This document shows, piece by piece, positions 44,894 to 46,002 of a stretch of 64,000 bases of DNA. Source of the stretch: Isoetes taiwanensis (Eukaryota; Streptophyta; Lycopodiopsida; Isoetales; Isoetaceae); contig JAJEKV010000057.1 of the NCBI GenBank assembly GCA_021234155.1, forward strand, positions 4,433,821-4,497,820, in the 5' to 3' direction. The position numbers were made by a program, and so were the translations under genes. Numbering within the stretch: the stretch's first letter is position 1; every line of letters begins with the position of its first letter. The notes under the pieces were generated by a model. That model was given only the letters and a program-made list of their open reading frames with translations, was not told the origin of the DNA and did not search any database.

Positions 44894-45295
44894 TCAAGGG
44901 TATTCCTTGCGGATGCGACGCGCCAAGTGTATATCCTTGGGCATCAAGGTCACCCTCTTCGCGTGGATCGCGCAGAGGTTCCCTTCCTCGAACAACTGGG
45001 TGAGCTCGGCCTCAGCGGCTATTTGCAACACCCGAGTTGTGAGCGACGTCACCCTATAGTCGGTGACGAACTCCTGCATCACCTCCCGCATGAGTCGCTC
45101 GAACGGTGCCTTCCTAATCAGGAGATTAGTGCACTGTTGAAAGTGCTTAATCTCCCGGAAGACACGGGAGTGTATCGAATTAGGCCCGTGATGGACCTTC
45201 TTCGGCTTCTCCGGTGGTGGCGGTGGCGGCTTAGGCTGGTTCTTGGCTGGACGCCCCCCTCCACGTATCGGTCGACGTTCTGCCGGCAATACCAT
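44894..45295 (-). CDS. Divergent histone H3 fold in outer element
   Basis: The 133-residue frame has a Pro-rich N-terminal linker ([11 protein letters not shown]) and then a full H3 fold: [69 protein letters not shown] and LARRIRKE. About 60% of fold positions equal plant H3 by hand. Loop 1 is of normal length. The stretch [16 protein letters not shown], which contacts H4 and DNA, is almost unchanged while the alpha1-alpha2 region has drifted. The neighbouring ORF upstream carries the H3 tail. Same position as in the inner element. Confidence 0.93.
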
Positions 45296-46002
45296 TCATT
45301 ATACCTCTTCCACCGACGGAGGTATTCCTGGTATGCTTTGAGGCGGCGTCTGAACAGGCGCTCCTCCTTCAGGGCGAACGGCCGCTCGCCCGCCTTCTGC
45401 TTCTTGACCACCTTAGGTGGCTTGGGCCACTTTGGGTAAGGTGGTCTAGCGTCGGGGTTTGAGGGTTCCCCGGCGCGCTCGTCCTCCTCATCTTCTTCCT
45501 CTTCGACCTCCTCTTCTACCTCCTCCTGCTGCGGCTCTTCAATAACGACGGTCTTGCGAGGCCGGTCGTTCCTTCTCTTCGTTCTCCTCTCTTGCTGCCG
45601 CAACTCCCGCTCCCGTTCCCTCTTCTTCCTAGCGGCCCTCTCTTCTGGCCACTCAGCAACCTTCTCCTTGCCCTTCTTCTTCGGCACTGAAGGGCCCGCC
45701 TCTTCTACCTGCTCTTCGGCCTGCTCTTCTACCTGTTCTTCCACTTCGGTGTCTGAGGCCCCGAAGTGGCGGGATTCGTCGGTTCTCTGCGTGCCCGCCG
45801 ATGAAGAGCTGGTACTGCTAGGTGCCTCCTCCTCAGCGTCGTGGTAGGTTTCGTCGCTGCTACTGGAGGGAAGCTCCTCTTCCCCCTTCTTGGGTCGAAG
45901 GTGCTCCGGGATCTTCTTCGTGTATCGACCTGCTGCTGCTTGGGCCATCGAGAGCGTAGGTCGCTCGTTGTATTTCCTAGCTGTTTGCTTGGTTCTTGCC
46001 AT
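45118..46002 (-). CDS. ORF with exact H3 N-terminal tail plus charged extension
   Basis: From the Met at 46002 the peptide reads [20 protein letters not shown]; its first ten residues are identical to histone H3, including the K4 and K9 contexts. It then has Ser/acidic tracts ([18 protein letters not shown]), acidic Glu repeats, a strongly basic section ([19 protein letters not shown]), more Glu runs, and a Pro/Lys section ([17 protein letters not shown]). This is much longer than an H3 tail. The H3 fold lies immediately downstream at 44894-45295. How the two are expressed together is not visible. The frame is open upstream to 46131, but the H3 match fixes the start. Confidence 0.9.

Follow-up and report, generated by a model that had tools for sequence, protein, structure and literature searches.

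In Isoetes taiwanensis, the first gene of a Ty3/gypsy chromovirus family encodes a histone H3 variant in which an H3 tail tip, a long charged insert and a diverged H3 fold are joined, and purifying selection maintains it. A sister family has another H3-fold protein, one that lacks the tip, and the two families together carry the H3-like gene in hundreds of element copies. Both are represented in the window, the 64,000-nucleotide stretch of DNA that was analysed, where an inner element is nested in an outer one.

The outer element, on the minus strand, is identified as a Ty3/gypsy chromovirus by its order of reverse transcriptase (RT), RNase H and integrase, by the chromodomain of the integrase, and by LTR pairs, 5-bp target duplications (read by eye) and a primer site (Table 1). 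Its LTRs end in TGTGACG..CGTCACA, and the duplication is ACATC. The motif TGGTATCAGAGC, which we take to be a primer site of the initiator-tRNA-Met type, occurs exactly, anywhere in the stretch, in 33 of 40 fetched relatives. The H3-like gene is the first long ORF past the 5' LTR and runs in the sense of the element, giving the gene order 5' LTR, H3-like gene, ORF2, gag, pol. An antisense accessory ORF is ruled out, as H3 and pol lie on one strand. ORF2, which is interrupted by the inner element, measures 520 aa from stop to stop in the relative L049 and has no Pfam match. The integrase match to PF00665 scored slightly under the cut-off. Pfam matches to gag and protease come from the outer element, the one whose gag region was scanned.

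The outer LTRs are less diverged than the inner ones (K2P 0.020 versus 0.056). This is the reverse of the order expected from nesting, since the inner LTRs differ more though they lie inside the outer element; LTR gene conversion could account for this, as could unequal rates. Two further LTR-like stretches of about 2.45 kb (56871-59324 and 61536-64000, 96% identical) form a third pair with a distant likeness to the other LTRs, and the window search gave no H3 match between its members. LINE-like reverse transcriptase/endonuclease ORFs were seen by eye near the outer element (48182-48857, 50491-52515 and 2448-5418).

Table 1 Features of the two chromoviruses in the window.
Feature	Positions	Strand	Remarks
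H3 tail tip and charged insert	45121..46002	-	ORF 46002->45121
H3 histone fold, separate frame in window copy	44894..45295	-	stop included
Outer 5' LTR	46573..48220	-	97.3% identity to 18401-20031 (self-comparison)
Outer 3' LTR	18401..20031	-	pairs with 46573-48220
Primer-binding-site-like TGGTATCAGAGC	46560..46571	-	directly after outer 5' LTR
ORF2, 5' part (MAPSSFVRWYN...)	43777..44113	-	89% to residues 14-125 of L049 ORF2
ORF2, 3' part, beyond inner element	29495..30671	-	85% to residues 125-514 of L049 ORF2
Outer gag and protease	27103..29277	-	PF03732, PF08284
Outer reverse transcriptase, RNase H, integrase	24899..27232	-	PF00078, PF17917, PF17921 above cut-off
Outer integrase C-terminus and chromodomain	24439..24942	-	PF00385, E 2.9e-10
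Inner chromovirus, nested in outer	30672..43776	-	LTRs 30672-32287, 42148-43776
Inner H3-like gene, broken in window copy	40187..41397	-	N-domain 41397->40612, fold 40534->40187

In the window copy, tip and fold lie in separate frames that share positions 45121-45295. The preliminary description had reported an ORF opening with the first ten residues of H3 and continuing into a long acidic and basic region, with an adjacent frame encoding an H3 fold at about 60% identity in which a sixteen-residue H3 stretch is retained, and all of these features were recovered. The fold is 63.2% identical to plant H3.1 over 87 residues and matches Pfam PF00125 with E 2.3e-31 and 109 bits (gathering score 26.4 bits); it is nearest to H3 and belongs by its fold with core histone H3. 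The complete H3 N-terminal tail, with K4, K9, K14, K18, K23, K27 and K36, is absent. Only about the first nine tail residues are kept and the insert, composed of a Ser/acid stretch, a basic stretch and a proline-rich linker, replaces the rest; we therefore place the protein among H3-like variants and not with canonical H3. When the window-copy insert was compared with 5.8 billion proteins, no relative was found among the 7990 candidates scored. Because the fold lies in a neighbouring frame in both the outer and the inner window copies, a programmed -1 frameshift linking the frames was considered. It is ruled out by the uninterrupted frame of relatives, which indicates that the frame break is a lesion of the window copy.

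Relatives were sought in the organism's own genome (1,658,258,908 bases, 1110 contigs). The outer fold has at least 150 matches, window copy included, at 86-100% amino-acid identity; 150 were scored out of 9822 first-look candidates, and the copy numbers of both families are lower bounds. An open frame of at least 360 aa without internal stop was counted by hand at 53 of the 150. From 40 further loci (L009-L048), fetched with a preference for long frames, a script recovered 30 with an uninterrupted frame of 361-385 aa from MA-x-[T/S]-KQT to the stop, a share that this preference biases upward. All 30 encode the same layout, an H3 tail tip, a charged insert of about 260 aa and an H3 fold, and this recurrence of both parts in one frame indicates that their pairing is not due to chance. 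Locus L045 contains, outside the script's count, an additional copy whose open frame starts with the exact H3 tip. The tip consists of the exact ten H3 residues in 20 of the 30 intact copies and of MARTKQTYRK in six, the other four being single variants. Among the ten non-intact loci, six have the exact ten-residue tip upstream in a broken reading, two have MARTKQT with a changed continuation, and in two the tip was not found; the exact tip is present in 26 of the 40 fetched loci. At 36 of the 40, the family LTR lies on the same strand 1.17-1.42 kb upstream of the fold.

Three relatives (L049, L050 and L051) were examined 8 kb downstream. Gag, RT, RNase H, integrase and chromodomain are all present in L049, and its pol as query matches, in pieces, L051 over residues 3-1027 and L050 over residues 3-820. 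The L050 pol, downstream of L010, is 70% identical to that of L049 and has many broken frames beside an intact H3-like gene; possibly this copy moved in trans, or modules were exchanged.

Selection was measured as pooled Nei-Gojobori omega over all pairs of the 30 intact outer copies, so that related copies weigh repeatedly; dS among them ranges from 0.46 to 1.55. Omega is 0.047 for the tip (ten codons, with only about 6.5 synonymous sites), 0.064 for the whole fold (0.076, 0.039 and 0.092 for its three parts), 0.141 for the whole insert and 0.124 for the whole protein. Between tip and fold, the values are 0.144 for residues 11-38, 0.176 for the first Ser/acid region, 0.081 for the basic stretch, 0.157 for the second acid region, 0.129 for the stretch from ARPPYP to GGRP and 0.115 for the linker. 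Sampling for long frames could lower omega somewhat. In the single pair of elements that allowed both genes to be compared, L034 and L022, identity is 88.2% for pol (omega 0.087), 94.9% for the fold (0.045) and 85.3% for the whole H3-like protein (0.111); within this pair the fold is thus held more tightly than pol and the whole protein about equally. Further pol omegas are 0.172 for the window outer element and 0.223 for L050, where frames are broken. Judged from these codon comparisons, the outer H3-like protein is under purifying selection, strong on tip and fold and weaker on the insert.

These values bear on the possibility that an H3 cDNA was trapped once and has been hauled along as cargo, like Pack-type or hAT captures. 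A precedent exists in fungi, where H3 was captured by hAT elements and the copies were then inactivated (PMC6710886, from the text available), but the low omega values, with dS at about 0.5-1.5, together with long frames in two families at a constant place in the element, make passive capture very improbable here. Transduplicated host cargo shows no selection for function within the element, which is not what was found.

At K4, Q5, T6 and K9 there are no amino-acid changes, with 8, 6, 5 and 2 third-position changes, respectively, and when the tree is computed with the tip left out, 5 amino-acid and 51 third-position changes fall in the tip. Random draws of nine insert codons were as unchanged as the tip in 229 of 20000 cases. 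The low tip omega, and the finding that only 7 of 252 insert windows of nine codons have equally few changes, would suit a tail mimic or decoy, in which the tip titrates or recruits writers and readers of K4 and K9 and the fold is a mere carrier. However, constraint on the fold is similar to that on the tip, and the inner family has no such tip, so that we regard such a decoy as quite unlikely.

The inner element has LTRs 94.2% identical, with ends TGTGACG..CGTCACA and target duplication TTGGC (by eye), carries TGGTATCAGAGC past its 5' LTR, lies on the minus strand and encodes RT, RNase H, integrase and a chromodomain. Its ORF2 counterpart, at 38588-40031, is 23-30% identical to the L049 ORF2 (L049:5703-7262). 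The inner fold has at least 150 genome matches, window copy included, at 92-100% identity (150 scored out of 8714 candidates). Seventeen copies, 16 fetched for long frames plus L054, were analysed. They encode a protein of 409-420 aa composed of an N-domain and an H3 fold, the latter 85% identical to host H3 over residues 49-135. The protein starts with MAITKS, MANTKS, MAQTKS and similar sequences, and the exact ten-residue H3 tip occurs in none of the 17. The N-domain and the outer insert gave no match to one another, and neither matched any of 227 other proteins (E <= 0.1, low-complexity filter). Omega is 0.133 for the first ten residues, 0.108 for the N-domain, 0.243 for the linker and 0.024 for the fold.

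The inner family keeps the fold without the tip, so the fold, not the tip, is what both families share; this family is the main evidence against the tip as functional core. The preliminary description had proposed that the tip is retained while the rest changes and is the functional part. Family members do keep the tip, and under constraint (omega 0.047), so this half of the proposal stands. The other half does not: instead of decaying, the fold is also constrained, at a value similar to that of the tip, and the sister family holds its fold more tightly still without the exact tip. The outer fold appears to have diverged on the family stem and to have been held since, with no simple decay.

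All 30 outer copies keep K64, R72, R83, K115, R116, C110, H113, L126 and I130, while R49, R63, T118 and D123 are kept in 29 of 30 and R69 in 28 of 30; all of these, R69 included, are kept in 17 of 17 inner copies. We take these positions to be the H3-H3 bundle and DNA-contact residues of H3. K53 is replaced by H, K56 by Q and K79 by V in 30 of 30 outer copies, and R52 by K in 12 of 30, so that with the changes at 52, 53 and 56 the DNA contacts near the entry site differ. Positions 87-90 read LTTR in all 30 outer copies and FAIL in the 17 inner copies. In the available part of a review, these H3 positions are tied to the assembly pathway (PMC9145170), and, with LTTR there, the outer protein may be one that host H3 chaperones fail to accept.

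A model of the fold alone, of moderate quality (pLDDT 64, pTM 0.48), has helices at 10-25, 31-44, 53-73, 76-81 and 88-97 and gave 114 Foldseek matches at E <= 0.001 (best E 1.1e-5, prob 1.00). The best 50 of the 114, at 53-62% identity, come from nucleosome or tetrasome entries, as named by Foldseek titles, which refer to entries and not to chains; superpositions are loose (TM about 0.5, rmsd 9-14). The full-length AlphaFold model was poor, with mean pLDDT 52, and gave no Foldseek match at E <= 0.001.

Purifying selection, the fixed place in the element, the kept residues and the Foldseek matches to nucleosome entries support a model, to which we give roughly even credence, in which the element-encoded H3 variant pairs with host H4 in nucleosomes and alters the chromatin of the element or its targets. 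The H3-like protein would be translated from element RNA and enter the nucleus, where, paired with host H4, it would become part of nucleosomes. These would most probably lie on copies of the element, whether new or resident, or at its targets. The resulting chromatin would be without the normal H3 mid-tail, with no K14-K36 region and with S10 mostly replaced, and in the outer family R2, T3, K4 and K9 would be offered to host modifiers and readers. The element could gain from reduced silencing, or from easier access for transcription or integration.

Some of the same features would also fit a packaging histone that, in the particle or pre-integration complex, compacts RNA or cDNA beside Gag, with or without H4. 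The gene comes first, ahead of ORF2 and gag, its insert is strongly basic and acidic, and giant-virus histones form nucleosome-like structures (PMC11500106, in the part available). Nevertheless, packaging alone leaves the unchanged K4, Q5, T6 and K9 unexplained, and the kept H3-H3 bundle residues point to tetramers; we consider it unlikely.

Another rival holds that the integrase chromodomain reads K9 methylation on the H3 that the element itself encodes and thereby steers insertion. A chromodomain is present in both window elements, and one of these is nested in the other. However, against HP1, the outer chromodomain (VEIVPELL...YLVKWKHLP) presumably has I at Y24 and L at Y48 of the cage, and a chromodomain without these two residues does not favour reading of the element's own K9. 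It falls in group II as defined in the accessible text of PMC3350952, by which group II chromodomains have no first conserved aromatic residue and usually no third one, and where the interacting factor of the plant group II chromodomain is given as not found. The inner family, moreover, is without a K9-type tip. Self-targeting of this kind is thus very unlikely.

The canonical H3 query gave 15 uninterrupted host-type hits at 97-99% identity over residues 1-135, a count that misses intron-bearing genes as whole hits, and the five of these that were examined are ordinary H3. The remaining 135 of the 150 scored matches are at or below 87%, and many coincide with inner-fold matches. Between the outer and inner families, pol is 78.8% identical and the H3 folds 58%. 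This contrast is notable because the fold is the more slowly changing of the two within a family. It points to separate captures, to an exchange of modules or to a burst of change along the outer stem, which has 0.72 changes per column in the tree. However, ORF2 is only 23-30% identical between the families, which counts against reading much into the fold gap. The tree, for which 13 outer copies (of the 30) and 12 inner ones (of the 17) were sampled, gives each family a support of 100/100 but does not support a relation between them, and one shared capture for both, with an AU p of 0.159, is neither established nor rejected.

CENH3 has a longer loop 1. The outer fold resembles CENH3/CENP-A sequences in its H3 fold, its divergent tail and a few letters (HFQ, TNLLI), but aligns to H3 with no gap in loop 1 and so does not have the lengthened loop. 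A CENH3 origin is unsupported, since no CENP-A-named entry is found in the best 60 of 174 solved-structure matches to the fold, and grouping with two CENH3 sequences has a support of only 39/17.

With the intact-copy fold as query, 121 proteins of 0.55-1.75 times its length were found from 156 candidates, and none of the best 120 of these is more than 67% identical to it. Some share the layout, with an M[VA][RK]TKQT[AE]RK tip, about 220 aa and an H3 fold. The middle part of one such protein, used as query, found 153 proteins among 273 candidates; the fold is present in 52 of 114 motif-recognised proteins, and 37 of the 52 have a tip-like start. Tentatively, and with more doubt than confidence, LTR retrotransposons may have taken core histone H3 as a regular gene, perhaps repeatedly, in two chromovirus families and possibly in at least one unrelated high-copy family of eukaryotic proteins that is not known to be an element. 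If so, the tip-insert-fold layout would be a parasite histone reached by convergence, with which the element sets up a chromatin state of its own. P0007, P0013, P0017 and their kin, and P0094, P0102 and theirs, are H3-fold proteins with long N-terminal extensions; both types are unannotated, with several near-relatives each.

Element copies of H3 number at least ten times the 15 host-type hits, many of them broken, and an H3-like ORF in a genome of this kind may belong to an element and not be a histone variant, which bears on annotation. Retroelements are silenced via marks on host H3. If the nucleosome model is true, a retroelement with a constrained H3 of its own would be acting directly at the level of chromatin, and would provide a natural experiment on the parts of H3 that a parasite needs. 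A genetic parasite thus seems to use a home-made version of its host's DNA-packaging protein.

No histone-encoding retroelement was found in the literature covered, as judged from titles, abstract starts and the passages cited here. The main text of the viral-histone review PMC9145170 has no use of "retrotransposon" or "retrovir", and that of the Isoetes taiwanensis genome paper (PMC8566536) no use of "histone". The comparisons with known systems below draw on the available portions of the cited papers. hAT transposons captured H3 in the Dothideomycete fungi Pseudocercospora fijiensis and Pyrenophora tritici-repentis (PMC6710886). P. fijiensis has hundreds of H3 copies, all but the original inactivated; RIP inactivated the extra copies there and in a further five species. 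In P. tritici-repentis, by contrast, 23 out of 26 copies seem functional and group nearest the original H3 (PMC6710886). As in I. taiwanensis, a mobile element carries H3 and has multiplied it to tens or hundreds of copies. However, the hAT carriers are DNA transposons, whereas the present case is an LTR retroelement with a new protein layout, long-term purifying selection and two families. Single H3 genes also occur in DNA viruses, for which nucleosome formation is thought likely (PMC9145170); here too, a parasite genome has one H3-like core histone. The bracovirus H4 (CpBV-H4/CvBV-H4), likewise a parasite-encoded core histone, joins host nucleosomes and acts via its N-terminal tail (PMC5423620, PMC9145170), but it is a polydnavirus H4, whereas the Isoetes element is a retroelement encoding an H3 with a tip-insert-fold layout. 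Finally, group II plant chromoviruses (PMC3350952) share with the element Gag, RT, RNase H, integrase and a chromodomain without Y24 and Y48, and differ from it in that the Isoetes element has an extra H3-like gene and ORF2 before gag.
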